Source of the DNA: Betaproteobacteria bacterium
Lineage (GTDB): Bacteria > Pseudomonadota > Gammaproteobacteria > Burkholderiales > Burkholderiaceae
Direction: 5' to 3'
NCBI GenBank assembly: GCA_009927445.1
Contig: RFMZ01000213.1
Span: 45,158-109,157 of the forward strand
DNA length: 64,000 nucleotides
Shown: positions 4,653-16,896 of the stretch, piece after piece
Position numbering within the stretch: the first letter of the stretch is position 1
How the letters are laid out: the number at the start of each line of letters is the position of its first letter
Made by a program: the position numbers and the translations under genes
The notes under the pieces: model-generated
Seen by the model: only the letters and a program-made list of their open reading frames with translations
What the model was told of the DNA's origin: nothing
Database searches by the model: none

Positions 4653-5591
4653 ATGGGACATTTAGATGCGGAAATATTACTAGCGCAGCCAAGAGGTTTT
4701 TGCGCTGGTGTGGACCGTGCGATCAGTATTGTTCAGGAGGCGTTGAACCGATTTGGTGCGCCAATTTATGTGCGTCATCAAATTATTCATAATGCGCGCG
4801 TGATTGCTGAGTTAACAGCTCAGGGAGCGGTTTTTATTAATGAGTTAGACGAAGTGCCGGCTGGCGCAACATTGATTTTTAGTGCGCACGGTGTTTCAGC
4901 GAAGGTCCGTACACAAGCAAGCGCTAGAGACTTTAGAATTTTTGATGCCACTTGTCCGTTAGTGAACAAGGTGCATGCCGAGGTCAAGAAATTACATTTT
5001 GGGGGCATGCAGATTGTAATGATTGGTCACGCTGGCCACCCTGAGGTTGAGGGCACGATGGGACAGGTCGTTGATCGCATTCATTTAGTGCAAGAAATTG
5101 CGGATGTGGATGCGCTACATTTTCCTGAGAATACACAGGTAGCCTACGTTACCCAAACTACCTTATCGATTGATGAGACAAGAGATATCATAGCGGCTTT
5201 AGAAATACGTTTTCCCCAGATACAGCATCCCAAAAAACAAGATATTTGTTATGCTACACAAAATCGCCAGGATGCTGTTAAGGAGCTTGTGCCAATGGTC
5301 GATGTTGTCATTGTGGTGGGAAGTCCGAACAGTTCAAACTCCAATCGATTAAGAGAGTTAGGGCAGCGTCTTGGCGTGCGTTCATACTTGGTTGATCATC
5401 CAGATCAGCTTGAAAGAGCTTGGTTTGAGGGTCAAAAGCGCGTTGGACTAACTGCTGGGGCTTCAGCCCCAGAAAGTCTCACACAAGAGATTTTGGAGCG
5501 CATTCGTGACTTCGGCCCAAGGGTTGTAAAGACATTACCAGGTGTAGAGGAAAATACCATCTTTGCCCTGCCTAAGGGATTAGGAAAGTAA
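4653..5591 (+). CDS. ispH: 4-hydroxy-3-methylbut-2-enyl diphosphate reductase (IspH/LytB)
   Basis: The last enzyme of the MEP isoprenoid pathway. It reduces HMBPP to IPP and DMAPP with a [4Fe-4S] cluster. The three cluster cysteines are in GFCAGV (Cys17), DATCPLV and [10 protein letters not shown]. The HGVS and SSNSNRL motifs are also present, and 312 aa is the usual length. It follows puhE in the same direction and is closed by a terminator, so it seems to be the last gene of the puh/acsF unit. Its place here ties isoprenoid supply (geranylgeranyl tail, carotenoids) to photosystem expression. Whether a second housekeeping copy exists elsewhere cannot be seen. Confidence 0.95.
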
Positions 5592-5601
5592 AATCCCTGA
5601 C

Positions 5602-5623
5602 ATAGGGAAATCCCTATATTTTT
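5602..5623 (+). terminator. Rho-independent terminator after ispH
   Basis: A perfect inverted repeat, ATAGGGA/TCCCTAT (5602-5608 and 5611-5617), is followed by ATTTTT. It lies 11 bases after the ispH stop. The stem is short and the loop tight (AA, or AAAT if one pair opens), so strength is uncertain. Its position just ahead of the bchG promoter region fits the end of one unit and the start of the next. Confidence 0.6.
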
Positions 5624-5646: not shown

Positions 5647-5690
5647 TGTAAAATTTAGTTGACGTTTATACATGTCAATGTAAAAATACA
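5647..5690 (+). promoter_or_regulatory. Tandem PpsR/CrtJ-type operator (two TGT-N12-ACA boxes, 8 bp apart)
   Basis: TGTCAATGTAAAAATACA at 5673-5690 is an exact TGT-N12-ACA palindrome, the recognition pattern of the photosynthesis repressor/regulator PpsR (CrtJ). TGTAAAATTTAGTTGACG at 5647-5664 is a second copy with one mismatch in the last base (ACG). The boxes are 8 bp apart, the spacing known for cooperative CrtJ/PpsR binding. One box covers the proposed -35 and the other the proposed -10 of bchG. The regulator gene is not in the window. Confidence 0.72.
5659..5687 (+). promoter_or_regulatory. Predicted sigma-70-like promoter of the bchG-dxs unit, possibly leaderless
   Basis: TTGACG (5659-5664) is a good -35. 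A weaker -10, TAAAAA (5681-5686, 16 bp spacing) or AAAAAT (5682-5687, 17 bp), follows. The expected start point then falls at about 5693-5694, on the bchG ATG itself, and no Shine-Dalgarno sequence is visible. This fits a leaderless mRNA but has not been shown. Confidence 0.5.
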
Positions 5691-5693
5691 CTT

Positions 5694-6566
5694 ATGAAAT
5701 TTACTGCTTTTATCGAGTTATTAAAGCCTATCACATGGTTTCCACCCATGTGGGCTTTTATTTGCGGGGCTATTACCGCGGGTACTGCGCTGGGTGGTCA
5801 GTGGGAAATTCTTCTTTTGGGGCTCTTACTCACAGGGCCATTAGTTTGTGCATCTAGTCAAGCAGTCAATGATTGGTTTGATCGGCATGTAGACGCGATC
5901 AATGAACCGAATAGACCGATACCATCAGGCCGGATTCCAGGGCGTTGGGGGTTGTATTTAGGGATCATTTGGTCGATTCTGTCTTTAGTCATTGGTGCGC
6001 AATTAGGTCCTTGGGGACTCGGTGCAACTGCTTTGGCGATTATTTTTTCTTGGGCTTATAGTATGCCCCCCGTGCGCTTAAAACAAAATGGTTGGTGGGG
6101 AAATTTAGCATGTGCAATGAGCTACGAAGGTTTAGCGTGGATTACTGGCGCTGCTCTTTTGTCAATCACAGCCTCACCAAGCCAACCATCCCTTTTATTT
6201 GCAGGTTTATATAGTTTAGGCGCGCACGGAATAATGACGCTCAATGATTTTAAAGCAATCGAGGGCGATCAAAAAATGGGTATTCGCTCCTTACCCGTTC
6301 AGTTAGGGGCGAATCGAGCGGCCCAACTAGCCTGTTTGATTATGCTGATCCCACAATGCATCGTGATTGGATTTTTATTTTTCATGGAGCAAGAGATACA
6401 CGCATTTTTTATTGGTATCTTGGTACTTGCGCAATTAGTTCTGATGAGATATTTTTTACGCGATCCAATTAAAAGAGCACTTTTCTATAGTGGCTTTGGC
6501 GTGCCTCTTTTTGTCAGTGGCATGATGGTAGCGGCATTTGGCATACGACATATGGGTGGTCATTAG
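5694..6566 (+). CDS. bchG: Bacteriochlorophyll synthase (chlorophyll synthase) BchG
   Basis: A UbiA-superfamily membrane prenyltransferase that attaches the C20 tail (geranylgeranyl or phytyl diphosphate) to bacteriochlorophyllide a. The 290-aa protein has the opening ELLKPITWFPPMWAF. The first Mg-diphosphate motif, NDWFDRHVDAINEPNRPIPS, lies at about residues 59-78 and the second, NDFKAIEGD, at about 183-191. About eight to nine membrane helices are visible. ATG 5694 gives the family N-terminus. It stands directly behind the PpsR-type boxes and shares one base (TAGTG) with the next gene, so it is the first gene of a coupled unit. Confidence 0.96.
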   Translation: MKFTAFIELLKPITWFPPMWAFICGAITAGTALGGQWEILLLGLLLTGPLVCASSQAVNDWFDRHVDAINEPNRPIPSGRIPGRWGLYLGIIWSILSLVIGAQLGPWGLGATALAIIFSWAYSMPPVRLKQNGWWGNLACAMSYEGLAWITGAALLSITASPSQPSLLFAGLYSLGAHGIMTLNDFKAIEGDQKMGIRSLPVQLGANRAAQLACLIMLIPQCIVIGFLFFMEQEIHAFFIGILVLAQLVLMRYFLRDPIKRALFYSGFGVPLFVSGMMVAAFGIRHMGGH

Positions 6567-7855
6567 TGTTAGCTCTGAGTCCAATTCAAAGTCTAGGCTG
6601 GCTAAGTATTATCCGCCTCGGATTTGTGCAGACTTCAATTGGCGCTATTGTGGTGATGACAACTTCTACTTTAAATCGCATTATGGTGGTCGAGCTGGCT
6701 TTACCAGCTATCTTGCCGGGCCTATTAGTTGCCTTTCATTATTTCGTGCAAGTAATCAGGCCTAGGATGGGTTTTGCATCAGATCAAGGCTTATATAAAA
6801 CGCCATGGATTTTAGGCGGAATTATCGTGTTAGGCCTTGGTGGGATTGGGGCTGCGATTGGAACGGTCATGATGGCAGAAAACGTCTTGCAGGGAATTAT
6901 CGTTTCCTTTTTTGCATTTTTAATGATTGGTATTGGCGTGAGCATGAGCGGTACTTCTTTATTAGCTCTTCTTGCAAAAAGTGTTGATGATCAAAAACGT
7001 GCGGCGGCAGCAACAATTGTTTGGTTGATGATGATTTTTGGATTTGCCGTAACGAGTATTTTGATTGGAAAATTTTTAGACCCATACTCTCCAGATAAGG
7101 TCATACAAATAGCCATTGTTGTGGCGATTGTTGGCTTTATAGTGACCTATTTAGCATTGCTTCAACTAGAAAAGGGTATCGAGGTAATTCCACCAACCAA
7201 GGTTATTTCAAATCCACTCACCTTCACACAATCTTTTCGTGAGATGTGGAATGACCTGGATATACGTCAATTCACAATCTTTATATTTATATCGATGCTG
7301 GCATTTAGTTCCCAGGATTTAATTATGGAACCATTTGCTGGACTCGTGTTTGACTATACGGTAGGGCAAACTACGAGTTTATCTGGCTTACAACACAGTG
7401 GGGTGCTAAGCGGTATGTTATTAGTAGCCTTTTGCGGTAGCTCTCGACTGAGGAAGTATTTTGGGTCGCTCAAGTCTTGGATTTTTTATGGCTGTTTAAC
7501 CTCCGCATTAGCAATGATGGGTTTGGCAATAGGGGCTTTTGTTGGTAAACCATGGCCACTAGATATGAATGTTTTTCTACTGGGGTTGGCAAATGGGGCA
7601 TTTTCGATTGCTGCAATCGGCTCGATGATGCGTCTTGCAGTAGCTGATGGTTTAGGAAAAGAGGGCGTCAGGATTGGTTTATGGGGAGGTGCGCAAGCCA
7701 TTGCATTTGGCCTAGGCGGTCTATTAGGTGCATCGGTTAGTGACTTAGCTCGCCTATTCATGTCAGAGACTGCAAACGCATACACTCTCGTATTTGCATT
7801 GGAATCATTACTGTTTTTGTACTCAGCAAAATTAGCCGTAAGCATTCGTCGATAA
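6566..7855 (+). CDS. PucC/BCH2-family major facilitator protein between bchG and bchP
   Basis: A 429-aa, twelve-helix protein of the PucC/BCH2 branch of the major facilitator superfamily, often called bch2 or orf428 when it sits between bchG and bchP. Features include IRLGFVQTSIGAIVVMTTSTLNRIMVVELALPA near the N-terminus (first part cited), the conserved loop SFREMWNDLDIRQF, and GLWGGAQAIAFGLGG near the C-terminus. It is a paralogue of the truncated lhaA at the left edge. The GTG start overlaps the bchG stop by one base. Family members are linked to assembly of light-harvesting complexes or bacteriochlorophyll delivery; the exact substrate is not known. Confidence 0.9.
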   Translation: MLALSPIQSLGWLSIIRLGFVQTSIGAIVVMTTSTLNRIMVVELALPAILPGLLVAFHYFVQVIRPRMGFASDQGLYKTPWILGGIIVLGLGGIGAAIGTVMMAENVLQGIIVSFFAFLMIGIGVSMSGTSLLALLAKSVDDQKRAAAATIVWLMMIFGFAVTSILIGKFLDPYSPDKVIQIAIVVAIVGFIVTYLALLQLEKGIEVIPPTKVISNPLTFTQSFREMWNDLDIRQFTIFIFISMLAFSSQDLIMEPFAGLVFDYTVGQTTSLSGLQHSGVLSGMLLVAFCGSSRLRKYFGSLKSWIFYGCLTSALAMMGLAIGAFVGKPWPLDMNVFLLGLANGAFSIAAIGSMMRLAVADGLGKEGVRIGLWGGAQAIAFGLGGLLGASVSDLARLFMSETANAYTLVFALESLLFLYSAKLAVSIRR

Positions 7856-7883: not shown

Positions 7884-9085
7884 ATGACACAAGAAATCTA
7901 TGATGTAGTTGTTGTGGGCGGTGGTCCAGCTGGATCAACTGCGGCCGAAAAGTTAGCCGAAAAAGGTAAAAAAGTCCTCCTCTTAGATCGTGGTGGACGA
8001 GTGAAGCCTTGTGGCGGAGCAATCCCACCAAGATTAATTAAAGACTATAAAATACCAGATTCCTTATTAGTTGCCAAAGCAACTAGCGCTCGGATGATCT
8101 CCCCCAAAAATAAAAAGGTGGATATTCCGATTGAGAATGGTTTTGTTGGCATGGTCGATCGAGGAACCTTTGACGAATGGTTACGGCAAAGGGCCCAGGC
8201 GGCTGGTGCTATTCGTGAAGTTGGTAATTTTTCTGAATTAAAAGAGTTGGATGGCTTGGTGGAAATATCTTATCGCGTTCGGGGAAAGGCTCAAATTGGA
8301 GAAGGAGAGCTTAAAAAGGTATATGCCAGATCTGTAATTGGTGCTGATGGTGCTAAATCAGGAGTTGGACGAGCAGCTGGGGTGGCTGGATGTGCGGAGG
8401 CAAATTACGTGTTTGCGTATCACGAAATTTTACGTAAACCTGAAAAAACATCGATAGATTATGACGCAAGCCGATGTGATGTCATTTATCAGCAGCAAGT
8501 ATCACCTGATTTTTATGGTTGGGTCTTCCCCCATGGAGATACTTTAAGTATCGGAACGGGGAGTGCTGATAAAGGATTTTCTTTAAGAAATGCAGTTGGA
8601 CATTTGCGCGCACAAATTGGTTTTGAAAATGCCGAGCTGATTCGGCATGAAGGAGCACCATTACCTATGAAACCTCTGAAACGCTGGGATAATGGTAAAC
8701 ATGTTGTACTTGCTGGAGATGCTGCTGGAGTAGTTGCTCCATCTTCAGGTGAAGGCATATATTATGCGATGTTGGTGGGGAGCTCGCAGCAAGTGCGATA
8801 GAAGCGTTTTTATTATCGGGCAATCCAGCGAAGTTGAAATTGGCGCGTAAGTCATTTATGAAAGAGCACCGTTTAACTTTTATCGTTTTAGGTATTATGC
8901 AAAGATTTTGGTACATCAATGACAAGCGTCGAGAAAGTTTTGTCAAAATGTGCGAGGATAAAGATGTACAACGCTTGACGTTTGAGTCTTATATGAATAA
9001 AAAACTAGTACGGAAGAAACCACTTGCCCATATCAAAATATTCTTTAAAGATATGGGTCATCTTTTAGGGATTGCTAAAGCATAG
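7884..9085 (+). CDS. bchP: Geranylgeranyl diphosphate/geranylgeranyl-bacteriochlorophyll reductase BchP (one frameshift as read)
   Basis: BchP reduces the geranylgeranyl tail to phytyl, completing bacteriochlorophyll a. The N-terminal FAD-binding site is GGGPAGSTAAE (residues ~11-21), then KPCGGAIPPR and, near the break, LAGDAAGVVAPSSGEGIYYAM. At 8774-8775 the run reads GG where the family needs GGG (LGGELAASAIEAF). Adding one G joins the 305-aa ORF to the downstream frame (KSFMKEHRLTFIVLGIMQRF) that ends at TAG 9083-9085, giving about 400 aa, the family length. Shine-Dalgarno AGGAAGA precedes ATG 7884. As read, the protein would lose its last quarter. Confidence 0.92.
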
Positions 9086-9087
9086 CG

Positions 9088-9573
9088 ATGAGGACTTTTT
9101 TTTTGCAAAGACATATTTGGGCAGCAGGGGCCTGGATTTTTGTCGTGTCTTTTAGTGGTGGTATGTTGACTGAGATTGGTCCTTGGTATTTGAATTTAAA
9201 GCATCCCGATTGGAAGCCGCCGGACTGGGCATTTGGGATAATTTGGACAACAATATTTGTTTTGGCGGCTTTTGCTTGGTCGATCGCTTGGCAAAGAACG
9301 CAAACCGTCAAGCAACGCTTGACTTTGAGCACCTTATTTATCGCTAATGCTCTTTGCAACATGCTATGGAGTGTCCTTTACTTTAAACTGCACCGGCCTG
9401 ATTGGTCTTTGATTGAAGCCTTTTTTTTATGGGGATCTGTACTTGCCATCATCCTAGTAACCCGTTCGTATAGCACTTTATCAGGCTGGTTCATGATGCC
9501 GTATCTAATCTGGGTGAGTTGTGCCATTGCACTTAATTATGAAACGATACGGCTAAATGGCCCGTTTGATTAA
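9088..9573 (+). CDS. tspO: TspO/MBR-family tryptophan-rich sensory protein
   Basis: A 161-aa membrane protein with five predicted helices and many tryptophans, including GPWYLNLKHPDWKPPDWAFG and a late WFMMPYLIWVSCAIALNYE, the hallmarks of TspO. In Rhodobacter, TspO affects photosynthesis gene expression, probably through tetrapyrrole export or breakdown in response to oxygen. It starts two bases after the corrected bchP stop and ends 17 bases before hemA, so it is cotranscribed with pigment genes. A porphyrin-level feedback role is inferred from this position. Confidence 0.9.
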   Translation: MRTFFLQRHIWAAGAWIFVVSFSGGMLTEIGPWYLNLKHPDWKPPDWAFGIIWTTIFVLAAFAWSIAWQRTQTVKQRLTLSTLFIANALCNMLWSVLYFKLHRPDWSLIEAFFLWGSVLAIILVTRSYSTLSGWFMMPYLIWVSCAIALNYETIRLNGPFD

Positions 9574-9590
9574 TTACTAGGAATTCTATT

Positions 9591-10913
9591 TTGAACTTAT
9601 TAACAATTGGCATTAACCATCAAATTGCCCCTTTAGAAATCCGGGAAAAGGTCGCGCTCACTCCCGAGGTAATTAGCGACGCAATGAAAGATTTACGAAG
9701 TTACCTCAATCAAGATGAGGAGAATAATCCATCAGAAGTAGCTATTTTATCCACTTGTAATCGGACCGAAATATATTGTGCAGCGAATGATCATCATATT
9801 CATGATCAGCAAATACAAGAGAAAACGATTGATTGGCTTAGCGCGCAAAGGCGCATGAATAAAAGTGAACTAACGCCCTATATTCAAACTGAGATATCGT
9901 CGGCAGCAGTGCGGCATGTTTTTCGGGTTGGTTGTGGATTAGATTCGATGGTTTTAGGAGAAACGCAGATTCTTGGCCAGATGAAGCAAGCGGTTGCACA
10001 AGCCCAGCAAGCTGGATCCATTGGGACATATTTAAATCAGCTATTTAATAAAACCTTTGCAGTTGCTAAAGAAGTTCGTGGAACCACAGAGATTAGTACG
10101 CATGCCATATCGATGGCCAGTGCGGCAGTGCGACTATCGCATCGTGTTTTAGGAGCGATAGATCAACAGCGTATTTTATTTATTGGCGCTGGTGAAATGA
10201 TTAATTTGTGTGCGGCACATTTTTCTGGCAAATCGCCCAAGCAAATTACAATAGCCAATCGAACCTTTGAGCGCGGTGAGGAATTGGCTAGAATGATTCG
10301 TGATCAGGGGCATCCTTGTGAATCAATCGCTTTATCTGAAGTGCCGCAGCGGCTTGCTCAATTTGACATTGTCGTTTCATGTACAGCTAGTTCACTACCG
10401 ATTATTGGCTTAGGGATGGTCAACACTGCCTTGAAAAATAGGCGGCATCAACCTATGGTAATGATAGACTTAGCAGTTCCGCGTGATATTGAGCCGGAGA
10501 TTAGTAAACTAAGAGACGTCTATTTATATACGGTGGATGATTTAGGTAAGGTGGTTAAAGAGGGCATGGAGTTCCGAACCAACGCTGTTAAGAGTGCCGA
10601 AGAAATTATTAATTTACAGGTTAAGAACTTTATGCATTGGTTAGCACAGCGCTCTTCAGTGCCCTTTATAACCAGTCTGAAGCAACGTAGTGAGGAATTA
10701 CAACGCGTTGAAATTGAAAAGGCTAAGAAAAGGCTCAATCGAGGAGAAGATCCCGCTGATGTGATGACTGAACTAGCTAGAGGACTTGCTAATAAATTTA
10801 TGCACGGATCATTACATTCCTTACATCATGTTGATGATGATAGTGTTGATGATTACCAAAAGGTATTAACTAAAATTTTTATGACTGAAAGTAAAAGAGG
10901 TGGATCGTGTTGA
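9591..10913 (+). CDS. hemA: Glutamyl-tRNA reductase HemA
   Basis: The committing step of C5-pathway tetrapyrrole synthesis: NADPH reduction of Glu-tRNA to glutamate-1-semialdehyde. The 440-aa protein has the catalytic cysteine in STCNRTEIY (Cys56), the [15 protein letters not shown] segment, the nucleotide-binding GAGEMI region and the C-terminal dimerisation helix. The start is TTG 9591, supported by TAGGAA about 8 bases upstream and by the standard N-terminus NLLTIGINH. It sits at the pigment end of the cluster and its stop overlaps the dxs start. Whether it is the only hemA in the genome cannot be told. Confidence 0.96.
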
Positions 10914-12796: not shown

Positions 12797-12811
12797 TTTG
12801 AGGAGTTAGCT

Positions 12812-12842
12812 TCTCCAAGCAAATAATCAATTTGCTTGGAGA
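12812..12842. terminator. Perfect 13-bp inverted repeat between convergent dxs and the Ldh2-family gene
   Basis: TCTCCAAGCAAAT (12812-12824) and ATTTGCTTGGAGA (12830-12842) form a perfect stem with a 5-base loop. It lies 15 bases after dxs and 27 before the end of the convergent gene. No T-tract follows on either strand, so it may act as a bidirectional 3' end or processing barrier, not a classical terminator. Confidence 0.5.
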
Positions 12843-12869
12843 GTATTCGTTGAAGAACTTCCTAGGCTT

Positions 12870-16764: not shown

Positions 16765-16874
16765 TAAAGAAACAACAGTAAAAGATTTTTTTACTATTTT
16801 GGTAATTAGGTTTTACCCTAAATTACAGTCATTCTAATACTTATTGGTTTAGAATAAGCAGGAAGATATGTATT

Positions 16875-16896
16875 AAAACTTGTTATAACAAGTTTT
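16875..16896. promoter_or_regulatory. Operator-like perfect palindrome before the CoA operon
   Basis: AAAACTTGTTATAACAAGTTTT is a perfect 22-bp palindrome 14 bases upstream of the ATG at 16911 and just before its GGAGG. It shares ACTTGTT with the other operator, whose centre lies 130 bp away. Placement between promoter and ribosome site fits repression of the CoA operon. Confidence 0.65.

Follow-up and report, generated by a model that had tools for sequence, protein, structure and literature searches.

The window analysed here is a 64,000-nucleotide stretch of DNA (G000:C148:45158-109157) from a 3.0-Mb genome in 293 contigs. We assigned this genome to a genus group with Polynucleobacter kasalickyi and P. 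hallstattensis. Within the window, bchG lies in a photosynthesis gene cluster, where the puh genes and acsF are followed by ispH (4653-5591), a 102-bp gap, and bchG. The features of the gap and of the genes that follow it are listed below, in positions of the window.

5602-5617, plus strand: palindrome ATAGGGAAATCCCTAT, starting 44 bp upstream of box 1 and centred at about -84.5; candidate second operator
5647-5664, plus strand: PpsR/CrtJ box 1, TGTAAAATTTAGTTGACG, TGT-N12-ACG (one mismatch); predicted -47 to -30
5659-5664, plus strand: -35 element TTGACG, within box 1
5673-5690, plus strand: PpsR/CrtJ box 2, TGTCAATGTAAAAATACA, exact TGT-N12-ACA; predicted -21 to -4
5682-5687, plus strand: extended -10 element AAAAAT (TG in front), with a 17-bp spacer
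5694, plus strand: first base of the bchG ATG and predicted start of transcription, from the ATG spacing and a geometry like that of Rhodobacter capsulatus bchC
5694-6566, plus strand: bchG, bacteriochlorophyll synthase, without a Shine-Dalgarno sequence
6566-7855, plus strand: gene for a pucC-family (PF03209) transporter, second in the unit
7884-9085, plus strand: bchP, geranylgeranyl reductase
9088-9573, plus strand: tspO
9591-10913, plus strand: hemA, the genome's second copy (the other is on contig C167)
10907-12796, plus strand: dxs, the sole dxs found in the genome
12811-12843, plus strand: strong terminator-like hairpin of 14 pairs, 3' of dxs

The ATG at 5694 is the earliest possible start of bchG downstream of an in-frame stop, which leaves little doubt about the start codon. 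From bchG to dxs, neighboring genes overlap or are at most 28 bp apart, and we infer that bchG-pucC-bchP-tspO-hemA-dxs is one operon. The hairpin at 12811-12843 likely closes it. The first-pass annotation had described a unit of bchG, bchP, tspO, hemA, and dxs. All of these genes belong to it, but the pucC-family gene in second place had been missed. In bchP, one base is missing past position 8772 relative to the close relative L008, which breaks the frame; this could reflect either a misassembly in the MAG or a genuine mutation.

A second copy of hemA is also found in the other bchG-bearing relatives that we tested, except for G126. Only one dxs, that of the photosynthesis operon, is found in the window genome and in the two genomes closest to it, G156 and G144 (the latter 99% complete). 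Two copies, the second one elsewhere, are present in seven other relatives that are phototrophic. Because the unit ends with dxs, an essential gene, either the promoter is never fully shut or dxs has another promoter.

Two PpsR/CrtJ boxes overlie the predicted bchG promoter

As the first-pass annotation had reported, an exact box and a box with a single mismatch lie 8 bp apart, and they overlie the -35 and -10 elements. Box 2 is followed by CTT and then by the ATG. The -10 element agrees with the consensus at 4/6 positions. Placement of PpsR operators over the -35 and -10 is textbook knowledge.

The bare pattern TGT-N12-ACA has 8 matches in the window versus 14.8 expected, and 397 in the genome versus 426 for a reversed control. 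As it is not enriched in either, we dropped it as evidence. The longer module, TGTNAA-N6-TTGACR-N8-TGTCA plus a -10 at a distance of 17 bp, exceeds chance by a wide margin. Using a weight matrix built from 54 relatives, with the window and its closest kin left out, the bchG site scored 34.6 bits, while the runner-up in the 109-kb contig scored 15.4 bits and the top score in 60 simulated contigs was 19.3 bits. Also, TGTNAAN6TTGACR occurs without mismatch just once in the 3.0-Mb genome, at the bchG site. These results support a putative PpsR-type operator over the -35 and -10 of bchG.

The two boxes together form a 54-bp nested dyad (9-8-5-10-5-8-9) with 19/27 pairs, because they face each other. 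The dyad was matched in 22/200 random 64-kb sequences, which is borderline, and with 11% of random runs matching it, we dropped it as independent evidence.

The module is conserved upstream of bchG

Counting the window and 80 other loci that we examined, the module precedes bchG in 67 loci, mainly from Burkholderiales but also from Methylobacterium; about 14 of the 80 lack it. The compared loci are related, so these counts are not independent trials.

In an alignment of 56 non-redundant loci anchored on nothing but box 1, all loci share the GT of the first TGT, which is followed by (A/C)AA. TTGAC is invariant as well, but it was part of the search criterion; the next base is A or G. The TGTCA that lies 8 bp past box 1 is conserved at 68-84% per position. 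A -10 of the form nAAAAT at a 17-bp spacer is conserved too (columns 36-40), although it was not used to anchor the alignment. Only the window's subclade retains ACA, the right half of box 2; elsewhere there is just the left half, TGTCA. Thus, the earlier prediction that both boxes and their spacing would be conserved holds up for box 1, for the 8-bp spacing, and for the left but not the right half of box 2. By this pattern, box 1 is the putative deeply conserved operator, not the "exact" box 2. Neither the TGTNAA left half nor the TGTCA in the spacer is a promoter element; to explain both, one has to assume a bound protein.

Within the genus, 40 of the 70 loci checked have the module, and the distance from TTGAC to the ATG is 34-36 nt in 39 of these 40. 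In the other 30, which have no box, bchG comes shortly after puhE or, in the case of P. kasalickyi, immediately after ispH. That bchG follows an upstream gene wherever the module is missing suggests that the module tracks bchG's own promoter, being kept where bchG has one and absent where it does not.

A predicted transcription start at the bchG ATG

Counting from the first T of TTGAC, 66 of the 67 loci with the module have an in-frame ATG at 34-38 nt. Offsets of 34, 35, 36, 37, and 38 nt were seen in 11, 22, 20, 12, and 1 cases (mean 35.5, standard deviation 1.0). Across these loci, the length from the ATG to the core of the protein ranges from 9 to 32 residues, so the N-termini vary. Given the 17-bp spacer and the usual 6-nt gap, an offset of 35 sets +1 on the A of the ATG.

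As a control, we looked for an in-frame ATG in the same 34-38 nt interval after the same box at other genes. We found one for bchF in 3/20 cases, for bchI in 0/13, and for dxs in 0/8 (3/41 overall). This mostly negative control implies that the arrangement is specific to bchG and is not general to PpsR boxes. In the three relatives with the bchF cases (L015, L051, and L076), a PpsR box has its TTGAC 35 nt before the ATG; now and then, genes other than bchG may therefore have leaderless starts too. The bchH promoter (C148:29491-29534, in L006) has another box pair, TGTAAATACCAATAGTCG-N8-TGTAACGATTAGTTTACA, at a spacing of exactly 8 bp, and a TTGACT about 34 nt ahead of the ATG. From this spacing, bchH is a possible second leaderless start.

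The pairing of the window's bchG start with the anti-Shine-Dalgarno sequence is +0.9 kcal/mol, as compared to -3.5 to -8.2 kcal/mol for the later genes of the unit, ispH, and acsF. Averaged over the relatives, bchG starts have -1.8 kcal/mol versus -4.3 kcal/mol for 853 other genes. In the alignment of the relatives, we found no conserved ribosome site between the -10 and the ATG.

The first-pass annotation had placed the transcription start on the bchG ATG, and the comparative evidence supports this indirectly: the 34-38 nt spacing in 66/67 loci, the conserved -10, and the geometry shared with R. capsulatus bchC (see below). The recurrence of this layout across the loci indicates that a putative leaderless arrangement of bchG has been kept over long evolution.

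Leaderless transcripts account for 7% of mRNAs in Methylorubrum extorquens DM4 (PMC9320726). This strain is a relative of L044, L062, and L081, which have the box 1/-35 part of the module before bchG; the paper's text does not mention bchG.

The palindrome upstream of box 1

The first-pass annotation also placed a terminator just upstream of the promoter. The hairpin at 5602-5617 is weak (the stretch has -7.8 kcal/mol, z -0.5), its U run is not kept in relatives, and the motif recurs in a divergent intergenic gap, so we do not uphold this claim. Instead, the position of the palindrome relative to the PpsR boxes is constrained. In 39 of the 40 bchG modules from the genus, TAGGGnAAAnnCCTA (or AAGGGTTTTC) starts 34 or 44/45 bp before box 1. 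After dereplication, 13/14 loci have the palindrome at such a spacing, versus 2.25 expected (maximum 7). The two main spacings are one helical turn apart.

The palindrome is also found at other photosynthesis genes. It lies 35 bp ahead of the bchF box in 9/12 relatives, and L179 has it as AAGGGAAATCCCTATA between the divergent aerR and bchF, a gap without the 3' end of any plus-strand gene. On the window's own contig, it is found at bchC (16866-16880, TAGGGTAAATACCTA, 47 bp) and at bchH (29474). We observed that the distances of TAGGGnAAAnnCCTA from the PpsR boxes at bchG, bchC, bchF, and bchH are helically phased. TAGGGnAAAnnCCTA also occurs at C148:39072 (L005/L006/L007) and in L178-L190.

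The TAGGG motif is not enriched by itself: allowing up to 3 mismatches, there are 91/84 matches in the genome versus 104/105 for the reversed control. The case for the element therefore rests on its position. Around PpsR boxes outside the genus, we found the TAGGG element 9 times versus 2.3 expected (maximum 5), which is a modest excess and is mostly at other genes. A looser pattern gave 13 versus 8 outside the genus, which is inside the null, and at distant bchG promoters there is hardly any trace of the element.

Is the hairpin simply the terminator of ispH? This would account for a stem of 6 pairs followed by ATTTTTC just past ispH. It would not account for the motif near the bchF box (at -35), in a gap that contains no end of a plus-strand gene, or for the fixed spacing to the box of -34 or -44/-45 in 13/14 loci. 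Also, the T run is absent from many relatives. We consider it unlikely, at something like one chance in four, that the hairpin is just a terminator. Because the motif recurs between the divergent aerR and bchF and keeps fixed spacings from the boxes, it is more likely that the TAGGGnAAAnnCCTA palindrome (probe form TAGGGAAATCCCTA) is a second operator, judging by its placement.

We tentatively propose a broader model, to which we give somewhat less than an even chance. In this genus, photosynthesis promoters would combine a PpsR box with a phased, previously undescribed TAGGGnAAAnnCCTA element 34/35 or 44/45 bp upstream (about -74/-84 from the bchG start), bound by an activator. The leaderless bchG would share a core geometry that is fixed across Burkholderiales and Methylobacterium.

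PpsR and the signal

We found ppsR at G000:C148:36573-37904, in the same cluster as bchG. Its product scores 380 bits against TIGR02040, whose curated cutoff is 275, and it has PAS domains and a Fis-type HTH. Across the genus, bchG and ppsR occur jointly in 71 genomes. There are 7 and 4 single finds of these genes, which may reflect incomplete assemblies.

The gene directly ahead of ppsR encodes a B12-binding protein similar to AerR/PpaA. A second gene of this kind is divergent from bchH (the pair is L006:8834-9823 and L006:18541-19515).

A redox response via a cysteine pair is known in Rhodobacter but is not universal in the family. The PpsR of the window genome has a single cysteine, at residue 431 in the HTH, instead of a pair. 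Therefore, this protein cannot form the C249-C420 disulfide known from R. capsulatus. Furthermore, the PpsR of Rubrivivax binds boxes with 8-bp spacing equally well in vitro whether oxidised or reduced (PMC4452267). Taken together, the lone cysteine and the Rubrivivax result do not support the redox-responsive switch that had been suggested for bchG. On the other hand, bchC of R. capsulatus, which likewise has an 8-bp spacing, is redox-responsive (PMC5362033). A one-cysteine mode has been reported for PpsR1 of Bradyrhizobium (PMC4452267), and by analogy, such a redox mode is possible for the window's PpsR.

Similar promoters in other phototrophs

The closest match in layout is bchC of R. capsulatus (PMC5362033). 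Relative to its transcription start, the CrtJ palindromes span -47 to -30 and -21 to -4. If +1 is at 5694, then the boxes in the window fall on identical positions. Both promoters have two TGT-N12-ACA boxes with an 8-bp gap that cover the -35 and -10, and the regulator's gene adjoins aerR in R. capsulatus, much as ppsR adjoins an aerR-like gene here. But bchC is a different gene, and the passages of that study that we consulted do not describe a leaderless arrangement, while for the window's bchG, +1 would be the ATG itself.

Among the betaproteobacteria, Rubrivivax gelatinosus has PpsR and tandem boxes at pucB and crtI, as in the window (PMC4452267). The pucB promoter shares with bchG a TGT-N12-ACG box and an overlap with the -35 and -10. 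The spacing of 8 bp is shared by crtI, but pucB has 9 bp. These are other genes than bchG, and it is their 8-bp pair that is bound independently of redox.

How bchG might be expressed

We infer PpsR binding, the start point, leaderless translation, and the direction of regulation as follows. PpsR would bind at the -35 through box 1, and less tightly at the -10 and the start point through box 2. Bound PpsR would block RNA polymerase until repression is lifted by light, redox, or an AerR-type partner. Transcription would then begin at the A of the bchG ATG, the ribosome would load onto the 5' AUG itself, and bchG-pucC-bchP-tspO-hemA-dxs would be transcribed as the following unit. Our reading of the sequences is that this is probably correct: with good confidence, a sigma-70-type promoter under a PpsR/CrtJ operator would give a leaderless bchG mRNA.

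Read-through from ispH could supply a transcript with a leader, which counts against this proposal, as do the incomplete consensus match of the -10 and the loci that lack the module. The operator might be genuine while the working transcript starts upstream, by read-through or from another promoter, and has a short leader without a ribosome site. The TAAAAT at 5649-5654 would fit another promoter, and the weakness of the hairpin at 5602-5617 leaves read-through possible. Also, because the sole dxs comes last in the unit, the bchG promoter, if it can be fully shut, is not the only source of dxs. Nevertheless, we view an upstream start as improbable: it leaves unexplained why the -35 and the ATG are 34-38 nt apart in 66/67 loci, why the -10 is conserved, and why the geometry is exactly that of R. 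capsulatus. And such a leader would likewise be without a ribosome site.

We give slightly less credence to the idea that the module is mainly a promoter for an alternative sigma factor of the RpoH type, such as SP70 of Roseateles depolymerans, with PpsR playing a small role. In an SP70 mutant of R. depolymerans, bchG was down to 12%, and crt, ppaA, and ppsR were hardly affected (PMC10037100). However, TTGACR-N17-nAAAAT is a sigma-70-like pattern, and the authors of that study did not find RpoH-type sequences in the R. depolymerans cluster (PMC10037100). In the window genome, a single RpoH exceeds the family cutoff; we looked for a second RpoH of the SP70 kind and found none. Nor would a sigma factor need the TGTNAA 12 bp upstream of the -35 or the TGTCA in the spacer.

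Implications

What would be new about the predicted leaderless promoter is the fixed position of a PpsR operator relative to the bchG start codon. In the open literature that we searched, we found no description of this or of leaderless genes that are controlled by PpsR or belong to the bch group. At bchG, the repressor, the polymerase, and the ribosome would share one stretch of about 50 bp. With this module, betaproteobacteria would have a natural candidate for a leaderless gene, and a widely conserved one. Finally, the second phased element is a pointer to a regulator that is missing from the current picture of photosynthesis gene control in freshwater bacteria.
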